A stretch of 41,980 nt of DNA from a virus. The DNA is taken from IMG/VR virus record IMGVR_UViG_3300036715_004491, positions 1-41,980 of that record. The stretch is one strand, 5' to 3'. Both the position numbers and the translations under genes were made by a program. The notes beneath the pieces were generated by a model that made no database searches, was not told the DNA's origin, and saw only the letters and a program-made list of their open reading frames with translations. Below are positions 1 through 16,541 of this stretch, in pieces; the stretch's first letter is position 1; every line of letters begins with the position of its first letter.

Positions 1-198
1 ATGCAAGACAAACTAATCACACGAGGCGGAGCCGGAAGAGGCCAGGGGCGCAAGCCGCTCAAGTCCGGTGAAGCCACCACACCTGTAACCATCCGCTTGG
101 CTGAGAGCCAAAAGGTTAAGCTGGCCACGCTGGGCGGCTCCAGGTGGGTGCGTGAGCGAATCGACGAGGCTGAGACACCCAAGGTGGCCGGCGACTGA
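1..198 (+). CDS. Small basic phage protein, 65 aa
   Basis: The first base of the window is the A of an ATG, so the ribosome binding site is not visible and the true start could lie further upstream. The protein has a Gly/Arg/Lys-rich N-terminal stretch (GRGQGRKPLKSGE). A segment resembling small phage DNA-binding proteins follows (TPVTIRLAESQKVKLATLGG, then WVRERID). The pattern is seen in short regulators near the control region of temperate phages. I infer DNA binding only from composition. It sits at the left of the visible early region, followed by about 100 bases before the next gene. Confidence 0.55.
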   Translation: MQDKLITRGGAGRGQGRKPLKSGEATTPVTIRLAESQKVKLATLGGSRWVRERIDEAETPKVAGD

Positions 199-298
199 TC
201 TGCGAAGCCCTGGCGCAGTTCTACCAGGGCAACAAGGCGGCGGCCAAGGTGAGTGAGACCACCAAGACCGCCTGACCACATCAAAAATGGAGTTTGAA

Positions 299-748
299 AT
301 GGCTATCGAAAGTGTAAGCGAGGGCGTAGCTTGTGCACGCGGAGAGCAATCGTTCATGAAGGGCAAAGCGCTGGCTGCCGCCATGGCAATGGCGGTCAGT
401 ACTGGCGGCAACGTCAGGCGCGAACTCGTTGCGGAATACCGCGGTGATGACACTGTTGAGCAGGATAATTTTGTGCGTAAGTACCTGGTCGTCCTCCTGG
501 AAAGTCCTGATTTGCTCGGTGGCTTCTCCGCAGGCCTGACACAACTGCTCGAAGAGGGATTTGATCACCGGAGCGGTATTGCTCAGTCTGTGGCCGCAGT
601 GTCTTATGAGGCGTGCCATTCTCTGCCGGGCGAAGATGGCAACCGCTGCACCGCGCCGCCCTTGAATGTTCAACTTCTCCAGTTCGGTCTCGCCAATTTG
701 GCTGAGGAAATGACCACAGCCGAAATGAAGGAGGTGGCCCATGGCTGA
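299..748 (+). CDS. Early cassette protein, paralogue of the 22327-22728 product
   Basis: 149 residues, function unknown. From residue 19 it matches the product of 22327-22728 closely. Shared blocks include FMKGKALAAAMA, SPDLLGGFSAGLTQLL and YEACH, and both end in KEVAHG. The start at 299 is chosen over the ATG at 287 because GGAG at 289-292 then serves as ribosome binding site. The same leader (GAGTTTGAAA then ATGGCT) also precedes the array in element 2. The last codons contain the GAGGTG binding site for the next gene, and the two genes overlap by 8 nt (ATGGCTGA). It looks like a collapsed version of the longer array at 22020-24044. Confidence 0.75.
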   Translation: MAIESVSEGVACARGEQSFMKGKALAAAMAMAVSTGGNVRRELVAEYRGDDTVEQDNFVRKYLVVLLESPDLLGGFSAGLTQLLEEGFDHRSGIAQSVAAVSYEACHSLPGEDGNRCTAPPLNVQLLQFGLANLAEEMTTAEMKEVAHG

Positions 749-1007
749 TTTTGATGGCGTCCAAACGGCATTCAACAACAGGCAGACGGTCCTGGTGCGA
801 GGTAACGATGCGCGCTGTGTCTCGTACTGGGCAGAGGACGATGCAGGGCATGAGCAGCAGGAGGACGGGCCTACCTACATCGTGATTGGGCGCGGGGCGC
901 CGGACGGCACACTGGTGAAGCTCGCGCAGCGCTATGGCTACGCCTTGGAGCTGCTGCAGGCCTTCCGGGATGGCCCTGGCAACGTATCAGCCCTGCAGTC
1001 GGCCTGA
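741..1007 (+). CDS. Early cassette protein, paralogue of the 23799-24044 product
   Basis: 88 residues, function unknown. The middle part is close to the product of 23799-24044. Both carry LVRGNDARC, YWAED, an acidic GHEQQ/GSEQL-EDGPTY stretch, VIGRGAPD and LQAFRD. The ATG at 741 overlaps the previous stop by 8 nt, and GAGGTG lies at 731-736, so translation is probably coupled. In both elements this gene closes the small-gene cassette, which suggests a conserved end gene with variable genes before it. No domain is recognised. The VIGRGAPDxxLxxLAQRxG stretch suggests a small mixed alpha/beta protein. Confidence 0.75.
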   Translation: MADFDGVQTAFNNRQTVLVRGNDARCVSYWAEDDAGHEQQEDGPTYIVIGRGAPDGTLVKLAQRYGYALELLQAFRDGPGNVSALQSA

Positions 1008-1015
1008 GCATCGCT

Positions 1016-1297
1016 ATGTACGCCCTCTACCGACTCGACTGCAGCGACATACCTGCCGGTGATGCGCCGCACTTGAGTGGGCGCTTTGCGACTGCTGAGC
1101 TGGCCCTGGTAGAGGCGCGCCGGATCATTAATGACAACCTGCGCGAATCTTTGGCCGGTTCCACCAGTGCAGCCGATCTGCTGGGGCGGTTCATGGACTG
1201 GGGCGAGGTCGTATACATCCGTGGTGATCCAGAGGTCGTGTGGGACTCATTTGAGTACGCGACACAGAGCGCGCAGGTAATTTACGGAGGCAACTGA
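1016..1297 (+). CDS. Hypothetical early phage protein, 93 aa
   Basis: Not recognised. The 93-residue product begins MYALYRLDCSD and contains an alanine-rich helical stretch (FATAELALVEARRIINDN). It ends in acidic and aromatic residues (VVWDSFEYATQSAQVIYGG). It starts 9 nt after the previous stop with no strong Shine-Dalgarno sequence, so its translation may depend on the upstream gene. No paralogue is visible in element 2. Confidence 0.55.
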   Translation: MYALYRLDCSDIPAGDAPHLSGRFATAELALVEARRIINDNLRESLAGSTSAADLLGRFMDWGEVVYIRGDPEVVWDSFEYATQSAQVIYGGN

Positions 1298-1299
1298 GC

Positions 1300-1956
1300 T
1301 TGGTCAACAAGAAAACGACAAGGGGCTATGAAGCCCCTTCCAAGAGTTTCCCTGATGCGCTCCGGGAACCCATTTACCCTGACTCCCCCCCGCCGCGAGA
1401 GCCGACATTCTTGGAGCAGTTCAAGGATGGCAATGCTGTCAGCCAACACGCTGATGCAATGCGCCGCTACTTTTTCGGAATCGCTCAGGAGATAGAAAAA
1501 AAGAAACACGCAAAGTTGCTGATGTTGGCTGATCACTTCGGCATCAGCCATGGGCATGATGACACATGGCTTAAGTTGTCTCTGAAGCTGGCTGAGCATT
1601 TCATGCCTGGATTTGAAGTAAGGCTGACCAGGGGTAAAAGAGGTCCGCCAGAGAAGTGGAATGAAATGCAGCTGGCCAAGCTGTATTGCAGCGTGATGTT
1701 GAAGAACAAGTCGCTTGAGGAGCGCGGCAACACGAAGTCATATGCCGCAGCGTGCTCCGTACTTTCAAAATCTGGCTACTGGAAGGCCGCAGGGTCCGGC
1801 AAGACGCTGCACAACAAGTTTGACGAGGCCAAGAAAACGAATCTCGTCCGGATGCTTGATAGGGTTGCTGATGATCCGAATTATGGGCATCGAATTTACA
1901 AAGACTTTTTGCAACAAATGACCGGCGACGTAGGAGAAATGCGCAAAATTGAATAA
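1300..1956 (+). CDS. Hypothetical phage protein, 218 aa
   Basis: Not recognised. The start is a TTG at 1300, preceded by GGAGG at 1285-1289. No ATG further in leaves a better-placed binding site. The protein has a proline-rich N-terminal part (YPDSPPPREP), a helical middle and a basic lysine-rich C-terminal half. The segment around KSYAAACSVLSKSGYW is compatible with a helix-turn-helix, but this is weak. It is the last gene before the regulated gap at 1957-2041 and probably ends the first early transcription unit. Confidence 0.6.
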   Translation: MVNKKTTRGYEAPSKSFPDALREPIYPDSPPPREPTFLEQFKDGNAVSQHADAMRRYFFGIAQEIEKKKHAKLLMLADHFGISHGHDDTWLKLSLKLAEHFMPGFEVRLTRGKRGPPEKWNEMQLAKLYCSVMLKNKSLEERGNTKSYAAACSVLSKSGYWKAAGSGKTLHNKFDEAKKTNLVRMLDRVADDPNYGHRIYKDFLQQMTGDVGEMRKIE

Positions 1957-1961
1957 ATAGC

Positions 1962-1995
1962 TTCCCGGCAATAGGTGCGCAGCATTTACCGGGAA
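1962..1995. promoter_or_regulatory. Inverted repeat upstream of the AlpA-type gene
   Basis: TTCCCGG (1962-1968) and CCGGGAA (1989-1995) form 7-bp arms around a 20-nt gap that has further A/T pairing near the arms. It lies in the 85-bp gap before the AlpA-type gene. It could be an operator or a weak terminator. There is no T-run after it, so a regulator site is preferred. Confidence 0.3.
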
Positions 1996-2041
1996 ACTTG
2001 AAAAATTAATCTCGGGTCATTCGTTCAACGAGGTGCCCGAA

Positions 2042-2332
2042 ATGCAAATTAAGTTTCTTCGGATCAAGTCAGTATGCGAGCTGCTTGATCTGCCCTATCA
2101 GACATTTGTCGACCAGGTAAACAATGGCCTGTTCACCAAGCAGGTGAAATTGGGTCTTCGGGTCGCTGTGTGGCCAGCCCATGAAATTGAGGCCGTCATG
2201 CGGGCACGCTACGCCGGCAAGAGCGAAGAGCAAATCAAGAAACTTGTTCAGGCTCTGCATGACCAGCGCCAGACACCCAACGCGTTCAACGGCCCCGCCG
2301 CCGTCCTGGCCGCCGAGGCGCAGGCAGCATGA
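2042..2332 (+). CDS. AlpA-type helix-turn-helix regulator
   Basis: 96 residues. The N-terminal half (FLRIKSVCELLDLPYQTFVD) reads as a MerR/AlpA-like helix-turn-helix. The following LRVAVWPAHEIEAVMRARYAG fits the family pattern in which a strand and 'W/Y..EI..' helix contact DNA. AlpA proteins in P4-like satellites and related prophages act as excisionases or activators of the integrase region. Start 2042 is preferred over the GTG at 2033 because CGAGG at 2029-2033 is then well spaced. It leads an operon whose next gene overlaps by ATGA. Assigned from fold pattern, not a strong family match. Confidence 0.65.
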   Translation: MQIKFLRIKSVCELLDLPYQTFVDQVNNGLFTKQVKLGLRVAVWPAHEIEAVMRARYAGKSEEQIKKLVQALHDQRQTPNAFNGPAAVLAAEAQAA

Positions 2333-2541
2333 GCACCGCGAAGCAGTTCGAGACGCTGCGCGCCGAGGCCGCCCTGGCCGGTGTCACCCTAGTGGCATCC
2401 ACTGATGACCGTGACCTGCCCATTTACATCGCCAGTCGCTGGGCGCTGACACGCACGTTCCTCACTCTGGCTGAAGTGGCGCATTGGCTCGCCATGGTCA
2501 CCGGCAAGAAGGTGGCGATGCATGAGGAGGCCGCTGCATGA
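2329..2541 (+). CDS. Hypothetical early protein, 70 aa
   Basis: Not recognised. It overlaps the AlpA-type gene and the next gene by ATGA at both ends, so all three are probably co-translated. The product is alanine-rich at the N-terminus. Its central strand-helix pattern (PIYIASRWALTRTFLTLAEVAHWLAMVTG) occurs in small phage early proteins of unknown role. It lies just upstream of the replication genes. Confidence 0.6.
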   Translation: MSTAKQFETLRAEAALAGVTLVASTDDRDLPIYIASRWALTRTFLTLAEVAHWLAMVTGKKVAMHEEAAA

Positions 2542-2825
2542 CCGAAGCAGAAAGTTTTCTCATCCTGCAGGGCCAATGCTCGCTCTTCGACACGCCAACG
2601 GAACTTGTTCGTGTCACTTATGAGCAAGGTGCACCCGGATACCTGGCCACGCGAGCAGGATCCTCCTGGTTCACCCCAGACCTCGAGTCCATGCGTCTGC
2701 AGTTAGAAGCTCTGGAGGGTCGGACCATACCGCGCCCGGGCGTGGCCGCGAATGCCTTGGGCGGCCTGATGGACGCATTCCTGACCGGTCTGCAGGACGC
2801 CACCGCGCCGGACATGGACCACTGA
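2538..2825 (+). CDS. Hypothetical early protein, 95 aa
   Basis: Not recognised. It starts at an ATGA overlap with the gene before. The sequence is mildly acidic, with a predicted beta-rich first half (LFDTPTELVRVTYEQGAPGYL) and an alanine-rich C-terminal helix. It is followed within 5 nt by the zinc-finger gene and belongs to the same early operon. No paralogue is seen in element 2. Confidence 0.55.
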   Translation: MTEAESFLILQGQCSLFDTPTELVRVTYEQGAPGYLATRAGSSWFTPDLESMRLQLEALEGRTIPRPGVAANALGGLMDAFLTGLQDATAPDMDH

Positions 2826-2830
2826 TAGCC

Positions 2831-3298
2831 ATGGGCCTACTTCGCGATCACCTTCCTGAACCCGCCAGCTACTTTGAGAGCCAGGGGCTCGTGCTGCAGC
2901 CCGGCGCCAAATGGCGCACCACGCGCTGCGACTTCCATGATGGCAGTGACTCCATGCGGGTCAACGTCCAGACCGGCGCCTGGGTCTGCATGGCCGGCTG
3001 CGGCGCCAAGGGCGGTGATGTGCTGGCCTACCAGATGCAGCGCCATGATCAGCCGTTCATTCAGGCCGCCAAGGCCCTGGGCGCCTGGCAGGACGATCCC
3101 CGTGATGAAACGCAGCCCAGGCGCAAGCCCCTGCCGTTCCCCGCTCGTGACGCACTGGAGGTACTGGCAGACGAGGCCATGCTCGTGGCCGTCGCCGCTG
3201 GCAATGTTGCACACGGTGTGGTGCTCAGCGCAGTTGATCGGGCACGCCTGATGCAGGCCGCCGGGCGCATTAACGTGATCGCGGAGGCCAGCGCGTGA
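2831..3298 (+). CDS. Stand-alone primase-type zinc-finger protein
   Basis: 155 residues. C33, H36, C53 and C57 form a CHC2-like zinc site, set in GAKWRTTRCDFHDG and TGAWVCMAGCG, followed by GGDVLAY, as in the zinc domain of DnaG/P4-type primases. No TOPRIM catalytic domain follows. The C-terminal half is a helical segment (ALEVLADEAMLVAVAAGNV). It is closely related to the product of 26511-26969 in element 2. It overlaps the helicase gene by GTGA, so the two products are probably made in matched amounts. Role in priming or in loading the helicase at the origin is inferred. Confidence 0.8.
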   Translation: MGLLRDHLPEPASYFESQGLVLQPGAKWRTTRCDFHDGSDSMRVNVQTGAWVCMAGCGAKGGDVLAYQMQRHDQPFIQAAKALGAWQDDPRDETQPRRKPLPFPARDALEVLADEAMLVAVAAGNVAHGVVLSAVDRARLMQAAGRINVIAEASA

Positions 3299-4353
3299 GC
3301 AAAGAATCCACCATCATCACCATCGACAGCAAGATGAAGCGGCCCAAGTTCAAGCTGCTCGACTACGCGCTTGCTGAAGACTTGGACCCAGATTCCACCG
3401 AGTTCGCTGATGAGCTGGTCGAGGGCCTGCTGGCCAAGCGCTCGATCTCCGTCCTGTACGGCGACTCCAACAGCGGCAAGACCTTCCTGGCAATCGACCT
3501 GGGGGCCGCCGTGGCCCGCCAACTGCCCTGGATGCAGCGCAATATCGATGGTGGCATGGTTGTCTACCTGGCCACCGAAAGCCCGGAGAGCGTACGCAAC
3601 CGGCTGCGGGCCTACCAGAAGCACCACGGCGTGAAGATCCCGAACTTCATCGTTGTCAGCACACCCATCAACCTGTACGAGAACCCGGCGGACGCCGCGG
3701 CCATCGTGAACATGATCCAGACGATCGAGGTCGAGCGCGGCTGCAAGTGCGAGCTGGTGATCGGTGACACGCTGGCCCGGATGAGCGCCGGCGCGAACGA
3801 GAACAGCGGCGAGCACATGGGCATGGTGCTGGCCCAGCTGGACCGCGTGAAGACCCAGGGCAAGACTGCCGTGGCCATGATCCACCACACCGGCAAGAAC
3901 GCCGCCATGGGCATGCGTGGATGGTCTGGCATGCGGGCCTTCATCGACACCGAACTGGAGGTGACCACCAGCGAGGCCTCAAGCGACCGCGTTCTGGAGA
4001 TCACCAAGCAGCGCGACATTGGCGGCAAGGGTGACCGCTTCGGGTTTCGCCTGGACACCGTGGCCATGGGCCTGGGCAAATGGGGCAAGGAACGCACATC
4101 GTGCGTGGTCGTGCCCGCCAATGCACCCATTAGGGCCCCCAAGAGCAACGCGAAGATGGGGCAGACCCAGCAGGCCGTCATGGCGCTGCTGCGCGGCGCT
4201 GAACGCAACATGCGCATCACCGAAATTGCCGAGGCCCTGAAGCCGCAGGGCGTCTCCAAGACCAGTGTCTACAACTCCGTAGAGCGCCTCCGGGATGCCG
4301 GACTGGTGGAAGTTTCCACCGGATTGGTACATCTGAATGGGGGTAAATCGTGA
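3295..4353 (+). CDS. RepA-type replicative helicase (AAA_25 family)
   Basis: 352 residues, starting at a GTG that overlaps the previous stop. Walker A is GDSNSGKT (56-63) and Walker B is LVIGDTL (154-160). IHHTGK lies around 196-201, and the RGWSGMRAFIDTELEV segment fits the RecA-like core of RSF1010 RepA and phage RepA-like helicases. The last 65 residues (MRITEIAEALKPQGVSKTSVYNSVERL) form a winged helix that could bind the adjacent repeats. These proteins act as ring helicases at plasmid or phage origins. The stop is immediately followed by the TTCACG repeat array, which supports a replication role. Confidence 0.85.
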   Translation: MSKESTIITIDSKMKRPKFKLLDYALAEDLDPDSTEFADELVEGLLAKRSISVLYGDSNSGKTFLAIDLGAAVARQLPWMQRNIDGGMVVYLATESPESVRNRLRAYQKHHGVKIPNFIVVSTPINLYENPADAAAIVNMIQTIEVERGCKCELVIGDTLARMSAGANENSGEHMGMVLAQLDRVKTQGKTAVAMIHHTGKNAAMGMRGWSGMRAFIDTELEVTTSEASSDRVLEITKQRDIGGKGDRFGFRLDTVAMGLGKWGKERTSCVVVPANAPIRAPKSNAKMGQTQQAVMALLRGAERNMRITEIAEALKPQGVSKTSVYNSVERLRDAGLVEVSTGLVHLNGGKS

Positions 4354-4441
4354 TTCACGTCATTCACGTTTGTTCACGCGTGAATGCCCATGAACGTTCA
4401 CGTTTATTCACGCCGCCCTTTAGGGGCGTGAATAACGTGAA
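4354..4441. repeat. Iteron array and hairpin, candidate replication origin of element 1
   Basis: Within 88 bp there are five TTCACG copies on the plus strand (4354, 4363, 4373, 4397, 4407). Three inverted CGTGAA copies (4379, 4427, 4436) accompany them. Two copies form the palindrome TTCACGCGTGAA at 4373-4384. A perfect 11-bp stem, TTATTCACGCC (4404-4414) with GGCGTGAATAA (4425-4435), closes the array. Such repeats directly after a helicase gene are typical of iteron origins. The stem could also end transcription of the replication operon. No protein gene is supported in this stretch on either strand. Confidence 0.7.
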
Positions 4442-4462
4442 TGGGGAAACGGTGGAATTGGC

Positions 4463-4705
4463 ATGAATGCCAGCACCGCCATGCTGATCCACACCTGGAG
4501 CGTAGGCAAAAGGTATCAGCTGACCCTGACCGTCCCCTTCCCGGTTGCTGGTGTTGTGACCGTGGCCACTTGCGAATGGGCGCCATGTCTGCCCCAGACC
4601 ATGAACCAGCGCGAGCGCCGCGACTACCTGCGCGGCCGTGCAAAAGCCATCGAAACCCTGTTGAAAACCGGCCTTTTTGATGCCGATTCGCTTGAAAAAG
4701 CATAG
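4463..4705 (+). CDS. Hypothetical protein, 80 aa
   Basis: Not recognised. It is the first gene after the origin candidate. The start ATG follows a weak GGTGGAA. The N-terminal part looks beta-rich (AMLIHTWSVGKRYQLTLTVPFPVAGVVTVATCEW). The C-terminal part is a charged helix (NQRERRDYLRGRAKAIETLLKTG). It lies between the replication and virion blocks, so it could belong to either. Confidence 0.55.
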   Translation: MNASTAMLIHTWSVGKRYQLTLTVPFPVAGVVTVATCEWAPCLPQTMNQRERRDYLRGRAKAIETLLKTGLFDADSLEKA

Positions 4706-4784
4706 CAGGAATCGAAAGAAATCGTGCAGCCATGCGGGTTGCCCGGTAGTTCCCCCCGTTTTAACCACTGAAAGAGAGAAAGCC

Positions 4785-5141
4785 ATGAGCATGCAACGAT
4801 TCCCCTCCGCCGTCCGTTCCGCCACCCTGATCGGTGACGACAACGCCAAGAACCCTGGCAATGTGGGCTGCAAAGTCCATTTGCGTGTGTCCGCCGTGCC
4901 TGGCGTGGATACCGTGCAGGTTGTGATTGAAGGCAAGGACTCGCTGTCCGGCCTGTACTACACGATCCTGCAGGGCGCCGTTCAGGTGGCCGCTGGGCTG
5001 TTCGTCTATACCGTCTACCCTGGCGTGGCCGCCGTGGCCAACGTGTCCGCGTCTGATGTTTTGCCCGATACCTATCGGGTACGCGTGGTGCACAGCGCCG
5101 GCACGGCTTTCACCTATTCCATGCAGATTGTGGAGATGTGA
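4785..5141 (+). CDS. Phage virion-associated protein, beta-rich, 118 aa
   Basis: The start at 4785 is chosen because GAGAGAAAG lies just upstream. Earlier in-frame starts have no binding site. The protein is beta-rich, with alternating patterns (VQVVIEGKDSLSGLYYTIL, then YPGVAAVANVSASDVLP and YRVRVVHSA). These resemble small structural proteins of tailed phages found beside head genes. I cannot name the exact position in the virion. It opens the virion-gene block of element 1; a capsid gene would be expected nearby but none is present. Confidence 0.6.
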   Translation: MSMQRFPSAVRSATLIGDDNAKNPGNVGCKVHLRVSAVPGVDTVQVVIEGKDSLSGLYYTILQGAVQVAAGLFVYTVYPGVAAVANVSASDVLPDTYRVRVVHSAGTAFTYSMQIVEM

Positions 5142-5142
5142 G

Positions 5143-5373
5143 ATGCCCATTTCTATCTCGACAGATCCAAGCGATCAAACGCGCGACGCCGCCTGGTTTG
5201 AAAACGAGGCCCGCATGAAGGACCCGGCGTACTTCAACCCGCAGGACCCTATGCACGAAATCGTCAAGGCTCAAGTCAAGGGGTATTTCTCAAGCCAGTA
5301 CCAGAACTCGGGCCCGGTCAATCGCTCTGCGATGCCGTTCTATATCGACACCACACCACCCAACCAAAAGTAA
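5143..5373 (+). CDS. Hypothetical phage protein, 76 aa
   Basis: Not recognised. The ATG at 5143 lies one base after the previous stop, with GGAG at 5132-5135 inside the upstream gene. The protein is polar, with proline and asparagine (FNPQDPMHEIVKAQVKGYF), and shows no transmembrane segment. The context is the virion block, between the beta-rich protein and the coiled-coil protein. Confidence 0.55.
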   Translation: MPISISTDPSDQTRDAAWFENEARMKDPAYFNPQDPMHEIVKAQVKGYFSSQYQNSGPVNRSAMPFYIDTTPPNQK

Positions 5374-5379
5374 TCGACC

Positions 5380-6117
5380 ATGAAAAAGCAACCCACTAAG
5401 ACCGAGGCGGTCTACATTGAAAACAGCATCACGCAAGCGCCCTGCGTCTCGATCGCGCAGGCCACTGCCATGGATATTAAGAAAAAGATCGAGGACTTCG
5501 AAGCCGAGATTGCCAAGACGGATGCCGAGATCCTTGGTGCCAATGAGCTGTTGCACGGCGGCTGGCGCGCCCAGTCCAAGGACCCCAGTGCGATGGAGCG
5601 AATCGCGGAAGACATAGAGCGCCTGCACAGGCGCAAGAAGATGCAGGAGACCGTGTGCACGGGCGCCGTTGCTGAGCTGGAGGCCGTGGAGCGCCAGATC
5701 ACTGCCGACCAGATCCTGCGCGTGCGCGCCGATGTGGACCGGTTGATGGCGGCCCGCACAGCCACCGCGCGCAACATCACCGCCGTGTGCTTCCAGCTGG
5801 CCGCCATGGTCCGCGAGGTAGACGCAATTGGCGACCAGGTCAAGAATCTGTTCAGCCATGACCGCAAGCAGACCGGCCTGACCGCCAATGAAGTGGCGGG
5901 CCGAATCAACCGCAGCCCGCTGCAGTGGGGCATTGACGAGATTCTTTCGCAGCAGCTAGACCCAGCCTTGTGGAAATCCGAGCGCCCAATATTTGGCATC
6001 CAGGGCAATCTGGAGGAGAAGATGGCAGAGGCCATTGATGTCGAGCGCCGTGGCCTGCTGTCCTCCATGGACATGATCGTGGAGCAGTTCGCTGCTGGGC
6101 TCAAGGTCGAGGAGTAG
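5380..6117 (+). CDS. Coiled-coil virion-block protein, 245 aa
   Basis: The ATG follows 6 nt after the previous stop. Long heptad-like helices fill most of the protein (IKKKIEDFEAEIAKTDAEIL; then ERIAEDIERLHRRKKMQE). An alanine-rich helical middle and an acidic C-terminus follow. No catalytic motif is seen. It directly precedes two ejection-type proteins, so it is probably a structural or assembly factor of the DNA-ejection apparatus. That role is inferred from position only. Confidence 0.6.
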   Translation: MKKQPTKTEAVYIENSITQAPCVSIAQATAMDIKKKIEDFEAEIAKTDAEILGANELLHGGWRAQSKDPSAMERIAEDIERLHRRKKMQETVCTGAVAELEAVERQITADQILRVRADVDRLMAARTATARNITAVCFQLAAMVREVDAIGDQVKNLFSHDRKQTGLTANEVAGRINRSPLQWGIDEILSQQLDPALWKSERPIFGIQGNLEEKMAEAIDVERRGLLSSMDMIVEQFAAGLKVEE

Positions 6118-6122
6118 CTCGC

Positions 6123-8015
6123 ATGATCGACACCCTCTACCAGGACAGCATCGACAAAAGCCTTGATGACCAGCTCCAGCGACCCAAGTCCGTAGCGCCG
6201 CCACCGCCCAACCCCTTCACCTTTTCAGGGATTGGCAAGGCTGCAACCGTCGGCGCCGTGGGCGGCGGTGCAGCGCAAGCGATTGGCTCAGGTGCGGATA
6301 TTCTGGGCGCATTTGGTCAGGTGCTGGGCGCGTCTGATGTCAGCTCCCAGGGCATGTTCTCCGGGTTCAGGACCCATGGCCTCTTGTCCGGCCCGACCCC
6401 GGCCGAGCGCACTCAGCGCGAGCAGGCCAACACCAAGATCCAGACTGAAGGCGTTGACTACAGCAGCGACGGCGGTGATCTGTTCCGCCAGCGGGCCGAC
6501 GATCTGATGCCCAACCCCCAGACCGCACACGCCAGTGAAATGATCGTGGCAGGCGTTGGCAAGTCCGTGGTCAAGGCCATCGGCCATGCTGCCCTGTTTG
6601 GCCCAGCGGCCCCGATCAGCTTTGCACTGGATGAGGGCCTGACCGAGTCCGATCGCCTGAAGCATCTAGGCGTTGACCTGGAGACCCGCACGAAAGTGGG
6701 CGCGGTGACCGGCGCAGTGGCTGGCGCCTCACTGGTACTGCCTGTGGCCGCGCCCGGGGCGCTGCTCAAGACCACCGGACTGGTGACCGTGGCGGGCCCG
6801 GGCGGTTTCGTCACGCAGAACATCGCCAATCACGCCATCCTGGAGCACGCAGGCTACAAGGATCTGGCAAACCAATATGACCCTCTGGACCCGGTGGGCC
6901 TGGCCCTGTCCACGCTGGTACCGGCCGTGTTTGGTTACATGGGCTACCGTGGTGGCAAGCCTGTGCCATCGCCCAAGCTGCGTGATGTGGCCATGGGCAT
7001 GGAGAGCGGCGGGCAGGACTTGGATGCCAACGGCCAAGTGCTGACCTCGCCCAAGGGCGCCAAGGGCAAGATGCAGGTGATGGACGCCACCAACCTGGAC
7101 CCGGGCTTTGGCGTGCGTCCTGCAGCCGATGGCAGCCTCGCTGAGCGTGCGCGCGTGGGTGGTGACTACCTGGACGCCATGGTTACCCGCTACGGCTCAG
7201 AAGACAAGGCTCTGGCTGCCTACAACGCTGGCCCCGGCGCGCTGGACAACGCCCTGGCAGCGGCGACCAAGAAGGGCACCAGCTGGCTGGCAGAGCTGCC
7301 CGCAGAGACCCAGGCCTATGTGCGAAAGGGCATGGCCAAGCTGGGCCCTGATCGCGTGGAGCACGGTGTGCGCACCGCCATTTCCGATGATCCCGATGTG
7401 GTGATGGCCGCGCGCGTCAACCAGGTGAACGAGGCCGTCGACGCCATGCGCCTGACCCCAGACGATGACCTGGCCGGCATGAATGCCCACATCGATGCCC
7501 TGCAGCGCGCGCATGACCAGCTGGCGCGCGGCGATGATGTGCACGTGCTGGACCTTCTGCCGCAGGACCGGCTCAATACGGCTCGGATGATTGACGCGCT
7601 GGGCCGCGACACGCGGGATTCAGCTGCGCCAGTGCCCGAGCTGATTCGCGCCGTGCAGGCCGATATGACCCCGCCCAGGCGTGCCAATGGATCCATGGGC
7701 CAAGAGCCGCCCACAGTGCTGGCTCGGGGCGCTGATGTGCAACCCGAGCTCATGGCGAAACCTGCAACACCTGCAACGGCAGCTGCAACGCTGCGCGATG
7801 TGGTCGGCAACGATGCACCGCACATCGATGCTGCCACGCCCGCCTCGGATTCCATGGCCATGCGCAATCCAGACCGCCCGGTGCTGATGGATCACATGGA
7901 CGAGAAGATGCCCAAGGCCCAGTTCATGGAGATGGTGCGCCGGGAGGCCGAGAGCGACACCAAGGACGCGCAGCTGCTGCAGGTTGCCGCCGAATGCTTC
8001 TTGCAGCAGGCCTAA
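6123..8015 (+). CDS. Ejection-type virion protein with lytic transglycosylase domain
   Basis: 630 residues. Residues about 36-70 and 190-280 are rich in Gly/Ala and hydrophobic residues, suited to membrane insertion. Residues about 285-390 form an SLT-type lytic transglycosylase. Glu294 in MESGG is the expected catalytic acid, GKMQVM follows, and AYNAGPG at 366-372 is the family signature. The rest is helical and polar. Podovirus ejection proteins of this kind enter the cell envelope and locally open peptidoglycan for DNA entry. The gene lies between the coiled-coil gene and the 851-residue gene. It is functionally parallel to 37178-40000, where the transglycosylase domain is at the N-terminus. 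Confidence 0.75.
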   Translation: MIDTLYQDSIDKSLDDQLQRPKSVAPPPPNPFTFSGIGKAATVGAVGGGAAQAIGSGADILGAFGQVLGASDVSSQGMFSGFRTHGLLSGPTPAERTQREQANTKIQTEGVDYSSDGGDLFRQRADDLMPNPQTAHASEMIVAGVGKSVVKAIGHAALFGPAAPISFALDEGLTESDRLKHLGVDLETRTKVGAVTGAVAGASLVLPVAAPGALLKTTGLVTVAGPGGFVTQNIANHAILEHAGYKDLANQYDPLDPVGLALSTLVPAVFGYMGYRGGKPVPSPKLRDVAMGMESGGQDLDANGQVLTSPKGAKGKMQVMDATNLDPGFGVRPAADGSLAERARVGGDYLDAMVTRYGSEDKALAAYNAGPGALDNALAAATKKGTSWLAELPAETQAYVRKGMAKLGPDRVEHGVRTAISDDPDVVMAARVNQVNEAVDAMRLTPDDDLAGMNAHIDALQRAHDQLARGDDVHVLDLLPQDRLNTARMIDALGRDTRDSAAPVPELIRAVQADMTPPRRANGSMGQEPPTVLARGADVQPELMAKPATPATAAATLRDVVGNDAPHIDAATPASDSMAMRNPDRPVLMDHMDEKMPKAQFMEMVRREAESDTKDAQLLQVAAECFLQQA

Positions 8016-8039
8016 CCCCAATCACAAAAGGAATTCACC

Positions 8040-10595
8040 ATGCATCAGAACTGCGTCAACAGCGTCAACGCCGCCGCCGGCCGCACGCTTACCGAGGCCC
8101 AACTGGCGAAGATCGAAGAAAGGCTGAAGGGAACCATGAAGCGCTTGGCGGTCAGCGATCCGAAGGCCTGGAGTGCCATGTCCAGGAGCGACCAAGTCAG
8201 GATGGGGGCCGAGGCGGCCATGCAAGATGTGAAAGCTGAGGCCGAGATGAAGGTCAAACGGGCCGAGATGCAGGCAGAGCGCACGGACGCCACCGAGCAG
8301 CGCGTGGCTGATTTTCGCCAGCAATATGGGGCCAGTCGCAGCCGGGCCCTTGTGCACGACATGCAGGCCACCAGCAACTATGTCGAGGCCATCAAAGTCC
8401 ACTCCATTTCCCGTATGGCCGACCTGATGGATGCCGTCACCAACAGCGAGGGTGCGACCGCAGGACGCCGGGTGATGATGTTCTTGTTCGACGCCGAAAA
8501 TCCGCACATGACCAAAGACTTGGTCGCCGAGATCTTCGGTAATGGGGACGGCCGCACCGGCAACAAGGTGGCACAGGAAGGCGCGAAGGCCTGGCTCACG
8601 GTAATTGAAGAGCTGCGGCAGCGCTTCAACGCAGCAGGCGGCGACATCCGCAAATTGCTCTACGGCTACATTCCACAGCCTCATGATGCAGTGCGGATAC
8701 TGAAAGCTGGAGCTGATGCGTGGACCTCCAAGGTGTTGCCAATGCTGGACCGCGCCCAGTATCTGAACGAAGATGGCACGCGCATGAATGACGCCCAGGT
8801 GATGGGCTACCTCCACCAAGCATGGGAGACCCTCTCAAGTGAGGGAATGAACATGCGGGAGGCCGGGGCCTTTGTTGGTGAGGCCGCCCGTGCCAAGAAA
8901 GGCGGCGAAGCTCGGGGGATTCATTTCAAGAACGCAGACAGCTACCTGCAATACATGGGAGAGTTTGGCCGCGGATCTCCCTATGACGCGATGATGGGAC
9001 ACATTGGCAGCCTGTCCCGCAGCATCGGCCTGGTGGAGCGCTACGGGCCCAATCCGAATGCACAGATGCGGCTGCATTTCGATCTGGCTGACAAGGCCGA
9101 TGGAAAGCTGCAGCGCGTTGGAATGGGTCTCGGCCCTTTCCGCGTTGATCCAAAGGGACTTTGGAACATCGTCAATGGCAATGCCTCTGCGCCAGCTGAC
9201 ACCCTCTATGCCGCGGGCGGCAGCGTTGTTCGCAATGTGCAGGTATCCAGCAAACTGGCGGGCACTGTGATCAAAAGTCTGCCTGATCTCTCGACCTTCG
9301 TGAACACCGTGGGTTACAACAAGCTGAGTTACTGGGAAGCCATCAAGAACCTGAAGGCGGTGGCCACCAGTGCGGACGCGCGCGAGTTCATGGCCATGCA
9401 CGGCCTAATTGCAAATTCAGCCATCCATGAAGTCAATCGCTTTGTCGTGGAAAACATCCGCCAGACCTGGAGCGGGCGGGTGGCCAACAGCACCATGATG
9501 CTCTCGCTGATGAATGCCTGGGATGATTGGTTGACGCGGGCATACCAGATGACCCAGATGGGGGGGTACGGCAAGCTGGCGCAGAAGAGCTGGGGCGACA
9601 TCAGCCAGTGGGACCGCGCGCTGCTGGAGCGCAAGGGCATCACGTCGAGCGACTGGGCAGTAATCAACGGTGCCAAGTTGGACGAATTCAATGGCATGAA
9701 ATTCCTGACCCCCGAATCAATCGTTGCCACTGGCCACCCAGAGGCTGTGCAGATCGCCACAAAGGTGCTCGCCGCAATACGCGAGGAAGCTGAATATGCC
9801 GTGATCAAGCCGGACCTGCTGACGCGCGGGGCACAGACTTGGAACGGCACCCAGGCGGGCACTGGAGTAGGTGAGATCGCGCGCGCCGCCATGATGTTCA
9901 AGAGCTTCCCCATCGCCATGATTACCCGCCATTGGGGTCGTATGCTGGACGCACCCCGTGTAACGGATGGGAGCGCCCCGGGCATGATGGGGGGACGGTT
10001 CGCCGGCAAGGGCGTGGGCCCGGTGCTTGTCAACCGCGTGGCGTACATGGGCGCGCTGAGCGTCAGCGGCATGGCCCTGGGCGCCATTTCCCTGCAGGCG
10101 GTGCAGATCATCACAGGCAAGGATCCAATCGACATGGCAGGCAAGCACGCAGCGGCCTTCTGGGCGAATGCTTTGGCAGTGGGCGGCGGGCTGGGCTTCT
10201 ATGGCGATCTGGTGCTCAAGGACTCCAGCACGGACCGCAGCGCCTGGGACACCGTGGGCAAGACGCTGGGCGGGCCGTTGCTGGGCGATGCGGCCGACCT
10301 GTACGCGCTGACCAAGGGAAATTTTGACCAGGCAATGGCCGGCAAGGAAACCCATGCTGGCGCTGAGGCCGTGCGCTTCATTCGCTCCCACCTTCCCTGG
10401 GTTAACTTGTGGTACGCGAAAGCAGCCATTGACCATGCCGGCTTGCACGCCCTGCAAGAAAACCTTTCTCCGGGCTACCTGGCGCGCATGCGGGACCGTG
10501 CGCAGAAGGACTGGGGACAGGACATGTGGTGGAAGCCGGGCACCGACCTGCCAGACCGCGCGCCGGACCTGGGCGCGGCCGTTGGCCAGCGTTGA
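8040..10595 (+). CDS. Large ejection-type internal virion protein, 851 aa
   Basis: The ATG follows AAAGGA. A charged helical N-terminal region (residues about 20-110) leads into a long helical body. A hydrophobic segment appears around residues 660-720 (RVAYMGALSVSGMALGAISL and following). The C-terminal segment (RFIRSHLPWVNLWYAKAAID, then SPGYLARMRDRAQKDWGQD and WWKPG) is a signature I know from large internal or ejection proteins of tailed phages. I infer that it is packaged in the head and ejected with DNA, as T7 gp16 is. It is the largest gene of element 1. Confidence 0.7.
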   Translation: MHQNCVNSVNAAAGRTLTEAQLAKIEERLKGTMKRLAVSDPKAWSAMSRSDQVRMGAEAAMQDVKAEAEMKVKRAEMQAERTDATEQRVADFRQQYGASRSRALVHDMQATSNYVEAIKVHSISRMADLMDAVTNSEGATAGRRVMMFLFDAENPHMTKDLVAEIFGNGDGRTGNKVAQEGAKAWLTVIEELRQRFNAAGGDIRKLLYGYIPQPHDAVRILKAGADAWTSKVLPMLDRAQYLNEDGTRMNDAQVMGYLHQAWETLSSEGMNMREAGAFVGEAARAKKGGEARGIHFKNADSYLQYMGEFGRGSPYDAMMGHIGSLSRSIGLVERYGPNPNAQMRLHFDLADKADGKLQRVGMGLGPFRVDPKGLWNIVNGNASAPADTLYAAGGSVVRNVQVSSKLAGTVIKSLPDLSTFVNTVGYNKLSYWEAIKNLKAVATSADAREFMAMHGLIANSAIHEVNRFVVENIRQTWSGRVANSTMMLSLMNAWDDWLTRAYQMTQMGGYGKLAQKSWGDISQWDRALLERKGITSSDWAVINGAKLDEFNGMKFLTPESIVATGHPEAVQIATKVLAAIREEAEYAVIKPDLLTRGAQTWNGTQAGTGVGEIARAAMMFKSFPIAMITRHWGRMLDAPRVTDGSAPGMMGGRFAGKGVGPVLVNRVAYMGALSVSGMALGAISLQAVQIITGKDPIDMAGKHAAAFWANALAVGGGLGFYGDLVLKDSSTDRSAWDTVGKTLGGPLLGDAADLYALTKGNFDQAMAGKETHAGAEAVRFIRSHLPWVNLWYAKAAIDHAGLHALQENLSPGYLARMRDRAQKDWGQDMWWKPGTDLPDRAPDLGAAVGQR

Positions 10596-10603
10596 GGACC
10601 GGC

Positions 10604-10837
10604 ATGGCCGATGTTTCCGAATTGCAGATCAAGTTAGGCATCAAGCGCATCAAGACGCCGGTGGACGTGCGAGATGAGATGGAGCGCGTTTACCGAGCCA
10701 TGGCCAGAAAGCAGATCGAGTCCGCTGATGGCGCGCGGATGATCAACGCGCTGTCCATGCTGCTCAACACGATGGACCGGGCCAGCTACCAGGATGTGGT
10801 GGACGCGGCCGAAGAGTTGTTTCAACAAAGGGGGTAG
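10604..10837 (+). CDS. Small phage protein after the ejection gene, 77 aa
   Basis: Not recognised. The start at 10604 is preceded by GAGGACC. The sequence is helical and charged (VDVRDEMERVYRAMARKQIE, then ARMINALSMLLNTMDRASYQ). A short helical protein of this kind often follows virion genes in related prophages. No paralogue is seen in the window. Confidence 0.6.
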   Translation: MADVSELQIKLGIKRIKTPVDVRDEMERVYRAMARKQIESADGARMINALSMLLNTMDRASYQDVVDAAEELFQQRG

Positions 10838-10839
10838 GC

Positions 10840-11148
10840 ATGGCTTCACGATTGACACCAAGGCTCAAGGAACTGCGCAAGAAGCTGGGCATGCTGCCGG
10901 TTGAAGCGGCGCGTCAAGCCGAGGAAAAAACAGGCGTTGAACGATCGACGGAAATGGCAGAGCTGGCGGCCAGTCACGCCATAGCGCTGCTTGCAAAGGG
11001 CATCACTGGATGGTCTATAAACCCCTCCACCATGGAAATCTGTTATCACGATGGGCGAAGGCTGTCGATGCTCGATATGCCGCCACCAGATGCATGCACC
11101 TTGCCTCGCAAAACATTCTCTGATCGCGTGGAAGGAAAGCAATCGTGA
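10840..11148 (+). CDS. Hypothetical phage protein, 102 aa
   Basis: Not recognised. It starts 2 nt after the previous stop, with GGGGG just upstream. A basic N-terminal helix (LTPRLKELRKKLG) is followed by an alanine-rich helix and a beta-like C-terminal part. It overlaps the next gene by GTGA, so the two are coupled. Confidence 0.55.
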   Translation: MASRLTPRLKELRKKLGMLPVEAARQAEEKTGVERSTEMAELAASHAIALLAKGITGWSINPSTMEICYHDGRRLSMLDMPPPDACTLPRKTFSDRVEGKQS

Positions 11149-11474
11149 TCCAGCCGATCGACTGGCCCAAGCTCCTGGGCGATCTGCACTACCTTGGGCT
11201 CACTGGGCGGGAGCTGGCCAGGGCTGCAGGCGTGGGCCAGGACGCCGTGAGAAGGTGGGCAAAAGGCGGGAGGCCATCAGAGAACGCTGGCGAAGGCTTG
11301 CAGCGACTCTGGTGCCACATGACCGGCAAGTCCGCAAGGTTCCTACCCCGCCAGTTGCCCGGAGCCACGCCGGTGCCGGTTCCTGGCCTCGACAGCGATG
11401 AGGAGCAGGAGCCCGCCTACGTGCACCTGGAGCAGTTGCAGCAGATCTGGAACCGGAGCATTTTGGGGTCCTGA
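11145..11474 (+). CDS. Helix-turn-helix protein next to the integrase
   Basis: 109 residues from a GTG start overlapping the previous stop. Residues about 18-40 (LTGRELARAAGVGQDAVRRW) form a clear Cro/CI-like helix-turn-helix. The C-terminal part is acidic and proline-rich (PVPVPGLDSDEEQEPAYVHL). It ends 1 nt before the convergent integrase gene. A role in controlling the integrase or late genes is possible but not shown. Confidence 0.65.
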   Translation: MIQPIDWPKLLGDLHYLGLTGRELARAAGVGQDAVRRWAKGGRPSENAGEGLQRLWCHMTGKSARFLPRQLPGATPVPVPGLDSDEEQEPAYVHLEQLQQIWNRSILGS

Positions 11475-11475
11475 G

Positions 11476-12780
11476 TCAGGCTACTGAGCGCGGCCGGATC
11501 GGGATCACCAGTGCGCCGCCCTGGCGCAAGCTGTCCAGGTGCGCGCCAGCCCGGTCCCAGGCTTCAATCATCTGCTCCCGGTAGTCGAAACCGTCGTATA
11601 CCAGTTTCAAGATGTTCTTTTCCTTATGGTTCAGGCACTTCTCTGAAATGTGGGGAGCAATGCCGATGCGCGACATCATGGTTTTGAACGTTTTGCGCAG
11701 ATCGTGCGGCGTCATCCGGCGGAAGTTCTCATCGGTGGTCTGTTGCTTGAAGCGGTTGAGGGCATGACCGATTACGGCCGATCCAATCACCTTTTTTCCG
11801 TCAACGCTCATCGGGGCAGGGAATACCAGGTCGCTGGCTGTCTTGAGTGCTTTGGCTTGTTCAAAAACACGCATTGCACCAGCAGACAGATGGACGATGA
11901 ACCCACGTCCCATTTTGTCTATCTCGTCTGGGATCACCCACTGCCGGTTTTTCAAATCCACATGAGACCATGTGCAATGCCGAACCTCTCCCGGCCGCGC
12001 CCCTGTGTAGATCTGCAGTTCGGCGGCGAGCTTCACCGCCGGGGCAGCCTCAGACCCCTCAAAAGCCTTAAAGAATGCGACGAGCTCCACGTCATTGGCC
12101 GCGTTCGGTGGGGCTGGCCGGTAAGGCTTGGGATTGACAACGCCACGCATTGGATCAGCGCCGGTGATGTACCCGCGTGCGACGCAGAAGATCATCAGGC
12201 CGCGCAGCGTGCGAAAAACGTGAGCTGCGGCGCCGGGTGATCCACGCCTGCGAGGTGCGTCCACACAATTGCGCAGCGCTTCTGTGGTGATGCTTTTGAC
12301 CTTGGCATGCCCAATGGCTGCCTTGATGTCCATGTCGTAGTTGTATTGGAGGATCTTCACCGTGCTCTCACGCACTGGCTTTCCGTCCTTGCGGGGGCTG
12401 CCCAGGCGTTTGTCCGCAATCCACTCGTCGAAGGCTTCCTGAATGGTTGGCAGCTCCTTGATTGCCTGGCGCTGCATCTGTGCTGCCACCACCGGGTGAT
12501 CGGCTTGCCCCTTGAGCGCTGCCTGATGTGCATCCTGGTGCGTCTGCATCTCTGCATTGGCCTGGGCCAGTCCAACCTCCGGATAGGACCCAAGAGAAAG
12601 CCAGCGGCGCTTGCCGTCAACCTGGGCACGGTATTGCCACTGGTGGTTTACCTTGCCTTTGCCCATGCGCGCGAATATGTAGAGACCTGGTGCGACCAGC
12701 TTGCGCACCTCGGTCTTTCCAGCAGGAGGACGCACCGCTTTTACCTTCTCGTCTGTCCAACGAACTGCCCTTGTTGCCAT
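11476..12780 (-). CDS. int: Tyrosine integrase of element 1
   Basis: 434 residues from the ATG at 12780, which has GGAG 9 nt upstream. A longer reading from 12816 would translate the tandem 12-bp repeats and is rejected. The N-terminal region (residues 1-95) fits the P4-type arm-binding domain. Catalytic residues are R262 (TGARPGE), H359 and R362 (PHDLRKT), H385 (CLNHKEK) and Y395 (LVYDGFDY), so the enzyme appears intact. It would recombine the element at the 3' end of tRNA-Thr. The gene is convergent with the HTH gene, and its start faces the attachment site 150 bp away. Confidence 0.93.
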   Translation of the reverse strand: MATRAVRWTDEKVKAVRPPAGKTEVRKLVAPGLYIFARMGKGKVNHQWQYRAQVDGKRRWLSLGSYPEVGLAQANAEMQTHQDAHQAALKGQADHPVVAAQMQRQAIKELPTIQEAFDEWIADKRLGSPRKDGKPVRESTVKILQYNYDMDIKAAIGHAKVKSITTEALRNCVDAPRRRGSPGAAAHVFRTLRGLMIFCVARGYITGADPMRGVVNPKPYRPAPPNAANDVELVAFFKAFEGSEAAPAVKLAAELQIYTGARPGEVRHCTWSHVDLKNRQWVIPDEIDKMGRGFIVHLSAGAMRVFEQAKALKTASDLVFPAPMSVDGKKVIGSAVIGHALNRFKQQTTDENFRRMTPHDLRKTFKTMMSRIGIAPHISEKCLNHKEKNILKLVYDGFDYREQMIEAWDRAGAHLDSLRQGGALVIPIRPRSVA

Positions 12781-12792
12781 GCCAATCTCCGG

Positions 12793-12816
12793 TTTGGATA
12801 CCACTTTGGATACCAC
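12793..12816. repeat. Two tandem 12-bp repeats upstream of the integrase
   Basis: TTTGGATACCAC occurs twice without spacing (12793-12804 and 12805-12816), between the integrase start and the tRNA fragment. Direct repeats at this place are typical of arm-type integrase or excisionase sites. They could also be an operator for the integrase promoter. Confidence 0.5.
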
Positions 12817-12929
12817 TTTTCCCGTATATTGTCGTGTCTCTCGTTGGTTTGGCCGCTACCTGCATTGATGATTTCAGGGGGGAAGTTGCGTTTTTGATAC
12901 GTTCTCGTGACTTCTCGGATATCAGAAAA

Positions 12930-12979
12930 ACCGCCTTGTAAGCGGTAGGTCGTCAGTTCGATTCCGACAAGCGGCACCA
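12930..12979 (+). other. attR: 3' part of a tRNA-Thr(TGT) gene
   Basis: The anticodon stem ACCGC (12930-12934) pairs with GCGGT (12942-12946) around the loop CTTGTAA with anticodon TGT. A T-arm (GTCAG, loop TTCGATT, CCGAC) and the acceptor strand AAGCGGC follow, then A and CCA at 12977-12979. No D-arm or 5' acceptor strand lies upstream, so this is a tRNA 3' portion, not a gene. It is the crossover remnant left by integration. An intact tRNA-Thr is predicted at the left end of element 1, outside the window. Confidence 0.85.
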
Positions 12980-13027
12980 CTCAAATCAAGCGATTTTGCG
13001 ATTGTGATTACAAACAAGAAAATCCCC

Positions 13028-13046
13028 GTGCTACCACGGTGCTACC
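13028..13046. repeat. Direct repeat resembling a second integrase control region
   Basis: GTGCTACC occurs at 13028-13035 and 13039-13046, an 11-bp period. Position and layout next to the tRNA end match the tandem repeats upstream of the element 1 integrase. This may be what is left of an earlier element integrated at the same tRNA. The rest of 12980-13278 shows the terminator below and no gene I can support. Confidence 0.4.
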
Positions 13047-13106
13047 TTGGAAGGTAATCAAGAGGATCGCAGAGGTGCTGGAAATGCACCTCAAATCGCA
13101 AAAAGC

Positions 13107-13127
13107 AAACGCCCTTCGGGGCGTTTT
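13107..13127 (+). terminator. Rho-independent terminator, probably of tRNA-Thr
   Basis: AAACGCCC (13107-13114), loop TTCG, GGGCGTTT (13119-13126) and a further T give an 8-bp stem with a stable tetraloop. It lies 128 bp beyond the tRNA CCA end, on the host side. Confidence 0.8.
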
Positions 13128-13278
13128 GTCATTCTGGGCGCTGATTTACACGGCCGGCGTTGCCAGGCATCCACCATCTTTCCGGCCAGGAACCATGGCT
13201 ATGGCCGGCCTGGGGCTGCATTGGGCGTTGTGCTGGCAGTCTTTGCACCCCAGGGCCAGCACGTTCGCCAGTCAGCCC

Positions 13279-14046
13279 TCAGGGTGGGTTCTGTGGCCCC
13301 TGCATCGAGAGGTCAAACGCTTTGATGTCATCGGGTGCTGGGGGCTCGGCGCCATCGGCCAATGCGCGCAGGTGATCGGCAATGTCTCGACGGCTGATCG
13401 TTCCCAGGACGTAGCGCGCATTGGAGAGTTCGTAGTCCAGTGACCCGCAGTACCGATTAATGCGCCCGTAGCCTGGCATGTGTGCAATGGAGCCCTTTTG
13501 GCCGCGATTCTCATGCTTGGCCAGATTCATGCGCAGGGCCTCGATTCGGCGAAATGGAATGTGTATTCGCGCCAGGTCCCGCTCGACCAGTGTTTTGAGG
13601 TCGCCAACTGCTATGGCTGATTCCAAAACGGCGATGCGCGCTCCGACCCCCGCGCTTTCATAACCCTGATCCAGCTGCAGGCGGCCCAGCTCACTTTCCA
13701 GGTCGCCCTTGTCCGCCAGCGCCAGCAGATGCCGGGCGCGCTGTCGCCATGTCCGCAGCAGCTCGTACACCGCCATGACCCACATCTGTGACAAGGCATT
13801 CAACATATGGGCGTCGGCCGGCGTTCGGTCCGTTTCGAATAGCTCGCGGAGCACCTGGTATTCCATCTCAGTGACTGTTTCATCGACCATCTGGATGTTG
13901 AACGCCTGCATGCCGAGAAACATGTCGTCGCCAAGGAAGGCCAACGACCGCAATCCGGCCGAAGTCTGTCCAAAATCGATGGCATCCAGGTGTGGGTATG
14001 GAAGCGGCTCGCTTTCGCCTGGATCAAAGTCTTCATCATTTGCCAT
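13279..14046 (-). CDS. Hypothetical protein, 255 aa
   Basis: Not recognised. The ATG at 14046 has GGGAG 8 nt upstream. The N-terminus is acidic (MANDEDFDPGESEPLP). The middle is helical (residues about 60-180), with many Arg and Leu residues. The C-terminal part is soluble and ends in a proline-rich tail. There is no signal peptide or membrane segment. It is a single gene in host-like DNA between the tRNA terminator and the degenerate integrase. It may belong to an older island, but its coding pattern is ordinary. Confidence 0.7.
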   Translation of the reverse strand: MANDEDFDPGESEPLPYPHLDAIDFGQTSAGLRSLAFLGDDMFLGMQAFNIQMVDETVTEMEYQVLRELFETDRTPADAHMLNALSQMWVMAVYELLRTWRQRARHLLALADKGDLESELGRLQLDQGYESAGVGARIAVLESAIAVGDLKTLVERDLARIHIPFRRIEALRMNLAKHENRGQKGSIAHMPGYGRINRYCGSLDYELSNARYVLGTISRRDIADHLRALADGAEPPAPDDIKAFDLSMQGPQNPP

Positions 14047-14321
14047 CTGCTATCTCCCTTGGTGCGCTTGGTAACTGTAGCCGAGGGCGTGCCTTTGTGG
14101 AGCGCGAGTAGGGCAGTGCCCGCTGCAGCGGCGAGTCACCTCGACGCTGGCCGATACACATAGATCGGTAGCTTGCACGCGCTGAGTCGGCCTTCACCGG
14201 CCCGCACTGTTGCCGCAGCCGCCATAAATTTTCACTCGGAGTGCCATCGCTGCCAAGAAATGAGCTTTTTGAAATAGGGTCAACTGGCAATATGAAATTA
14301 CCAACTAACTCTCAAGGACAC

Positions 14322-14936: not shown

Positions 14937-14977
14937 TGCATGTGGTTGAATGAAGGCAACCGCACGGAGGTCCCCAG

Positions 14978-15529: not shown

Positions 15530-15577
15530 TTGTTGCACTGGCTACCGGGTAATCGGTCCTGGTGCTGCCCTTGAAGG

Positions 15578-16051: not shown

Positions 16052-16269
16052 GCCCCCGATCGTAGTTCCTCCCGAATGGGGTTTGTTGGACCTCAGGCTG
16101 CTGGCGCCGCTCAGGTTCACTCATTTGGCCGAGATCCTTGCACGGTCACCCTGTGTTGGTTCTTGGTGACCTCGCAAACATCTCTACCTGGTCGAAATCT
16201 GGCGGGCTGTTGTTGCCGGCGACGGCGCTCAGCAGCATCTCGGCGGATGTAATCTCGTGGGTCTGCCGA

Positions 16270-16422
16270 CTATTCCACAGCTTGTCGCTGCAGTCGCTCG
16301 CAATGAGCCACGGCGTCAGCTTCCAACGCATGGCCAGCAATACGCACACCATCGATGAGGACGGCATAGTGTCCGTCCGCGGTGGCCCTGACTTCAAATG
16401 TGTGCGAGACGGATGTTTCCAT
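16270..16422 (-). CDS. Possible small protein, 50 aa
   Basis: A short open frame starting METSVSH and encoding FEVRATADGHYAVLIDGVRI, then an alanine-rich helix with HALEADAVAHCERLQR. The strand-strand-helix layout looks protein-like, and no other gene overlaps it. There is no strong ribosome binding site, so it could be chance. Confidence 0.4.
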   Translation of the reverse strand: METSVSHTFEVRATADGHYAVLIDGVRIAGHALEADAVAHCERLQRQAVE

Positions 16423-16454
16423 CGCTGCAGGGTAGGCCCTTGTCATGGCGTGCG

Positions 16455-16473: not shown

Positions 16474-16541
16474 GTTACAAAATGTCGCGCTTGATCTGAA
16501 ACTGGCCAGTGCCGCGCGCCAGCGTCGCCTGGCGGCCAATA

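Follow-up and report, generated by a model that had tools for sequence, protein, structure and literature searches.

Phage-inducible chromosomal islands (PICIs) are elements of about 10-20 kb with an incomplete set of virion genes, and it is established that satellites take over or remodel the capsids, tails and packaging of phages. EcCIMP1, a PICI of 19,963 bp located at tRNA-Thr in E. coli MP1, is excised, packaged and transduced with the podophage Kapi1, and it contributes to immunity against Kapi1 superinfection by a mechanism that is unknown (PMC11773190). In SaPI1, the small protein CpmB shares a C-terminal coat-binding motif with the scaffold of phage 80alpha and redirects capsid size (PMC5644958). 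Here we describe element 1, which occupies positions 1 to 12,979 of the IMG/VR record IMGVR_UViG_3300036715_004491; the whole record, 41,980 bp long, is referred to as the window. As judged from its sequence, element 1 is probably a PICI-like satellite of an epsilon15/BcepC6B-type podophage, equipped with a CpmB-like fragment and with ejection proteins of its own.

Element 1 consists of one intact rightward gene series and a convergent integrase at a tRNA-Thr remnant (Table 1). The AlpA-type regulator, zinc-finger protein, helicase and intact integrase that an earlier note had read from this DNA are all present according to Pfam and PHROG matches, the AlpA match being sub-threshold in Pfam. 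The origin proposed in the same note was also confirmed, as eight TTCACG/CGTGAA boxes lie within 93 bp 3' of the helicase gene (4353-4445), comparable stretches elsewhere in the window hold two at most, and none of 20,000 mononucleotide shuffles contained eight. This iteron cluster is a probable origin of element 1. Two of the features that define PICIs, an integrase with its attachment site and a set of own replication genes with an origin, were therefore observed. Additionally, 1-12,979 yielded no gene for a terminase, portal, capsid, tail or fibre, so that no head, packaging or tail gene separates the replication genes from the ejection genes, as had been stated, and the terminase, portal, coat and tail that would identify a BcepC6B-type phage are missing from this interval.

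The two ejection genes belong to the BcepC6B, epsilon15 and phiV10 podophage type (36% and 33% for the large protein), and their surroundings were compared with those in 84 IMG/VR loci carrying the large ejection gene. The tail gene gp12 and the head gene gp15 precede the pair in all 56 loci with at least 7.5 kb of upstream sequence, and a fibre gene or a conserved 545-aa gene lies 3' of it in 69 of the 70 with at least 2.5 kb downstream, the sole exception (L008) giving no match to the fibre or 545-aa queries. More distant matches in bacterial genomes also adjoin head or tail genes wherever sequence sufficed, except for one locus with too little annotated (L146). The helicase, zinc-finger, AlpA and tested small genes of element 1 were absent from all 84 loci. 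Furthermore, profile comparison showed the genes flanking its ejection pair to be unrelated to the phage neighbours, with the exception of a 76-aa gene. The 118, 245, 77 and 102-aa genes were considered as diverged versions of gp11-gp15, which the profile comparison did not support.

A precedent for this arrangement was found in EcCIMP1. Directly after its primase gene there is a cassette composed of DUF2824 (gp14), a 225-aa gp7 relative, a gp20-type 'DNA ejection protein' and a 906-aa transglycosylase; on reading the locus, genes for terminase, portal, scaffold and coat were all seen to be missing. Elements of this kind, in whole or in the part retrieved, are present in E. coli E8, D8, A10, ETEC6, SA186, 2273-PO3 and E1535. 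The D8 element is whole and lies between yicC and dinD with both chromosomal borders visible; the yicC site is empty in MP1, where EcCIMP1 is found at tRNA-Thr instead. At least 80% of the E8-type junction is present in 68 of 5426 E. coli genomes. Among six of these satellites (L155, L153, L158, L151, L156 and L161), primases at least 99.3% identical go with ejection cassettes that are unlike, as illustrated by gp20 of E8 and ETEC6, which share 25% identity over 322 residues against 99.8% for their primases. Certain E. coli satellites carry gp20 and gp16 alone, and in E1535 (L161) the ETEC6-type gp20-gp16 cassette stands behind a DUF5906-type primase gene and not a TOPRIM/DUF927 one. The E. 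coli cassette looks as if it had been exchanged as a module. Within a cassette type, the ratio of nonsynonymous to synonymous substitution rates (dN/dS) between satellites is mostly 0.03-0.3, similar to that of the primase, and higher in a few pairs with very few changes; by this measure the E. coli ejection cassettes are under purifying selection.

The expectation that an ejection-gene satellite would be new is consequently not supported, since satellites of the EcCIMP1 family already carry an ejection cassette without head genes. Ejection-gene satellites exist, and what had gone unrecognised is the role of the cassette, ejection genes as satellite cargo being undescribed in the literature searched (open-licence papers only). 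The proposal that element 1 itself is such a satellite is strengthened: this reading fits better than a phage because the ejection pair is placed among element-specific genes, this context was not seen in any of the 84 related viral loci, and the same plan recurs in independent E. coli satellites. The earlier note had also advised a search for the compact element in other genomes; its plan was recovered in E. coli and its gene context in none of the viral loci.

The same note had described the virion genes as only of the ejection type plus small proteins. This overlooks the nature of one of the small proteins (5143-5373), a capsid-assembly-type fragment. The 76-aa gene gave weak matches upstream of gp12 in several phage loci, which correspond to the C-terminus of the protein encoded directly before the major capsid gene, here called the scaffold because of its gene position. 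A profile built from 14 such phage C-termini picked the 76-aa gene among 533 open reading frames (ORFs) of the window (E=1e-9; E=2.5 for the next ORF), with a score of 35.9 bits versus 7.5 for the best of 5000 shuffles. When applied to every ORF of the loci collected up to that point, it had no further matches except ORFs at the left ends of phage loci, which lie upstream of the capsid gene where checked. By analogy with SaPI1, the 76-aa protein is a candidate CpmB-like capsid redirector. The 53/57-aa gene that precedes the E. coli cassette was also considered as a scaffold tail and rejected, as it showed no match to the Kapi1 scaffold.

The main rival, which we regard as unlikely, is that element 1 is a decaying prophage from which deletions have removed the terminase-to-portal and coat-to-gp15 stretches, the fibre and lysis genes and most of the scaffold gene. 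The 76-aa fragment, gp16 and gp17 do stand in phage order, and the match of the SLT protein to phage gp16 covers its residues 1-491 (57% to the phage locus L067) and leaves the last ~270 residues of gp16 without a counterpart. Against such a decay, every ORF is intact and has its own start codon, with gaps of -4 to 24 bp and no deletion scars from the 118-aa gene to the helix-turn-helix (HTH) gene HTH109, and the helicase, origin and integrase are intact as well. Of the 174 positions conserved at 95% or more in its family, the large ejection protein retains 156, comparable to phage members equally diverged, so that 90% of the near-invariant residues are kept at ~51% mean identity. The intact ORFs and these conserved residues favour a maintained function of the ejection genes. 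In addition, the profile comparison gives no sign that the 118, 245, 77 and 102-aa neighbours are leftovers of phage genes, and EcCIMP1 is a functional satellite of the same plan.

Several observations nevertheless speak against the satellite interpretation. The order of the 76-aa gene, gp16 and gp17 is that expected in a deletion-reduced phage, the large ejection protein sits on a long branch (0.82 versus a median of 0.14), and the divergence of the ejection genes may be older than a recent reduction. The viral-contig and bacterial-genome searches revealed no second copy of the compact element, which also agrees with decay, no helper phage is visible beside element 1, and its left boundary and left attachment site are not within the record. 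Moreover, the AlpA-like match is below the Pfam cut-off (E=0.0024), the integrase and AlpA lie at opposite ends, an arrangement not shared by the E. coli and capsid-forming PICIs examined, and the pre-capsid phage protein corresponds to phrog_3742, which PHROGs lists as 'unknown' and whose relatives are called 'protease', its scaffold function following only from position.

As the record begins at position 1 and the left attachment site is beyond it, element 1 could in principle be a complete phage with its head and packaging genes further left; we consider it unlikely that head genes lie there, and a complete phage of this kind very improbable. Related phages all keep head, tail and ejection genes together, while here the replication genes would split a left block from the ejection pair, which is followed by no fibre gene. 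Information on the missing end comes from element 2 (window positions 21050-41980), where genes related to the 153 and 88-aa early genes start ~1.2 kb inside a left edge that probably lies near 21.05 kb. Ahead of them is an HTH gene with a weak resemblance to that at the right end of element 1. Circular forms of both elements would share the order HTH, early genes, replication. Since the shared early genes sit near the left edge in element 2, the left end of element 1 is probably near position 1, and this analogy suggests that little is missing between its left attachment site and the start of the record. The first letters of the record are the ATG of the 65-aa gene and its last are a stop codon, which suggests that it was trimmed gene by gene out of a longer contig; a start exactly at a gene start would be expected if non-viral flanks had been trimmed.

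Two further explanations were weighed. That an island and a phage were wrongly joined during assembly is the least probable of all, although only a single record is known, possibly from a metagenome: the two sides of the junction are alike in base composition (tetranucleotide correlation 0.93), the genes from 4785 onward follow one another closely in a single series, and the 76-aa fragment differs from the corresponding gene of every phage relative. There is also a slight chance that superinfection exclusion or defence, and not satellite transfer, is the purpose of the ejection genes, in line with the contribution of EcCIMP1 to immunity against Kapi1 superinfection (PMC11773190). This is opposed by the operon that they share with a capsid-assembly-type fragment and by the retention of the transglycosylase domain. 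A double role in transfer and exclusion is possible.

If element 1 is a satellite, we infer its dependence on a helper, its packaging route, the redirection of capsids and the presence of its ejection proteins in particles. It would integrate at tRNA-Thr and, in the presence of an active helper, replicate from the iteron origin with the aid of AlpA, the helicase and the zinc-finger protein. The helper would supply terminase, portal, coat, tail and lysis functions, and the late operon of the satellite would provide the 76-aa scaffold-position tail, the helical 245-aa protein, the transglycosylase and the large ejection protein. The 76-aa protein would compete with the protein of the helper, so that small or satellite-specific capsids would be favoured, and the transglycosylase and large ejection protein would replace or join those of the helper in the particle and give satellite DNA access to the next cell. 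More tentatively, podophage satellites could represent a broad convergent class with its own ejection machine, whose cassette is exchanged to match helpers or hosts, to which element 1 would add a capsid-redirecting scaffold tail and in which element 2 would be a third design.

The features of element 1 are listed in Table 1. When modelled with AlphaFold without an alignment, the 245-aa protein consisted of helices only (pLDDT 64) and the 118-aa protein gave a poor model (pLDDT 51). No relatives of the helicase, the integrase, the 245-aa protein or the 88-aa pair came to light when viral contigs were searched with them. A phage-borne tRNA-Thr gene on a 177-kb viral contig (L025:2183-2228) matches the attachment sequence without a mismatch over 46 nt, and the tRNA-Thr 3' end had no other viral-contig match. 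In genomes of the bacterial order guessed from this phage-borne tRNA, no close integrase was found, only phages or small primase-bearing islands.

Table 1. Features of element 1 in the window, with the evidence for each assignment.
Feature	Position	Strand	Evidence or remark
Small gene, 65 aa, start exactly at 1	1..198	+	codon-usage score
Early small genes, 153, 88 and 93 aa	287..1297	+	first two with element 2 relatives (68% and 77% over aligned part)
218-aa protein	1300..1956	+	no relative in phage collection
AlpA-like HTH regulator / excisionase	2033..2332	+	Pfam Phage_AlpA E=0.0024 (below curated cut-off); phrog_66 E=3.8e-4
Two small overlapping genes, 70 and 95 aa	2329..2825	+	
CHC2 zinc-finger (primase-type) protein	2831..3298	+	E=2.7e-5
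RepA-like AAA_25 replicative helicase	3295..4353	+	E=8.8e-32
Probable replication origin, 8 TTCACG/CGTGAA iterons	4353..4445	+	box count versus shuffles
80-aa protein, role unknown	4463..4705	+	
118-aa protein	4785..5141	+	38% over 98 aa to portal-adjacent gene of podophage MW202512
76-aa stand-alone C-terminal domain of pre-major-capsid protein (probable scaffold)	5143..5373	+	profile E=1e-9
245-aa long-helix (coiled-coil type) protein	5380..6117	+	no relative found
SLT ejection protein	6123..8015	+	phrog_19855 1.8e-26; SLT 4.3e-7
Large ejection protein, BcepC6B gp17 type	8040..10595	+	phrog_684 4.9e-201
Two small genes, 77 and 102 aa	10604..11148	+	
HTH protein	11145..11474	+	38% to BcepC6B gp01 (gene before terS in BcepC6B)
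Tyrosine integrase, intact	11476..12816	-	E=2.4e-16
Right attachment site, tRNA-Thr 3' end	12931..12979	+	single copy in window

In the remainder of the window, element 2 encodes TerS, TerL, a short-fibre-like protein, P22-type ejection proteins and a full scaffold; up to the end of the record, TerL is followed by no portal and the scaffold by no coat. Its nearest P22-like phages have the order TerL-portal-scaffold-coat with the ejection genes far downstream. Element 2 may be a second satellite design whose right end is beyond the record. Between the two elements (13000-20800), a truncated integrase (14241-14936) and HD-hydrolase-like, HipA-like and restriction-endonuclease-like genes, all assigned by eye, give the region a genomic-island-like appearance. 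With respect to the zinc-finger gene of element 1, its nearest IMG/VR relatives are found in short records of 8-17 kb. Five of these (L036, L037, L039, L040 and L041) have the anatomy of capsid-forming PICIs and a full-length zinc-finger gene of the element 1 type (Pfam annotation for L036 only). Another, L035:313-12735, is satellite-like, with an integrase, a zinc finger, a RepA-like helicase and a coat gene; terminase and portal were not recognised in it, and its 969-aa protein is tape-measure-like by eye without a Pfam match.

Should satellites indeed carry ejection cassettes and swap them, the conflict between satellites and helpers would extend beyond packaging to DNA delivery into the recipient, and this delivery may set which cells a satellite can enter. 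In this regard, EcCIMP1 and Kapi1 form a laboratory system that allows a direct test of the ejection-cassette idea. EcCIMP1 resembles element 1 in its tRNA-Thr site, its integrase, its AlpA-like or HTH regulators, the order of a replication gene followed by a transglycosylase-bearing ejection cassette, and the lack of terminase, portal and capsid, which in element 1 applies to 1-12,979. However, its gp14/gp7/gp20/gp16 ejection genes are of the P22 type and not of the epsilon15/BcepC6B type, its primase is of the TOPRIM/DUF927 type, its integrase is at the left end beside the regulators, and no scaffold-type fragment was seen in it. Like SaPI1 CpmB, the 76-aa protein is small and repeats the C-terminus of a helper-type scaffold-position protein, but the two belong to different sequence families and the phage counterpart here is a scaffold by position only. 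Capsid-forming PICIs share with element 1 the AAA_25 RepA-type helicase downstream of the zinc finger, and the zinc-finger genes of L035, L036, L040 and L041 are 54-63% identical to its CHC2 gene, whereas L036-L041 carry coat, protease, portal and terminase (by Pfam for L036, the others being alike by sequence), none of which is present in element 1. Lastly, BcepC6B, epsilon15 and phiV10 have in common with element 1 the SLT gp16 and gp17 ejection proteins and the gp01 HTH, and differ from it as complete phages, whose 39-42 kb genomes also encode terminase, portal, coat and tail together with fibre and lysis functions.

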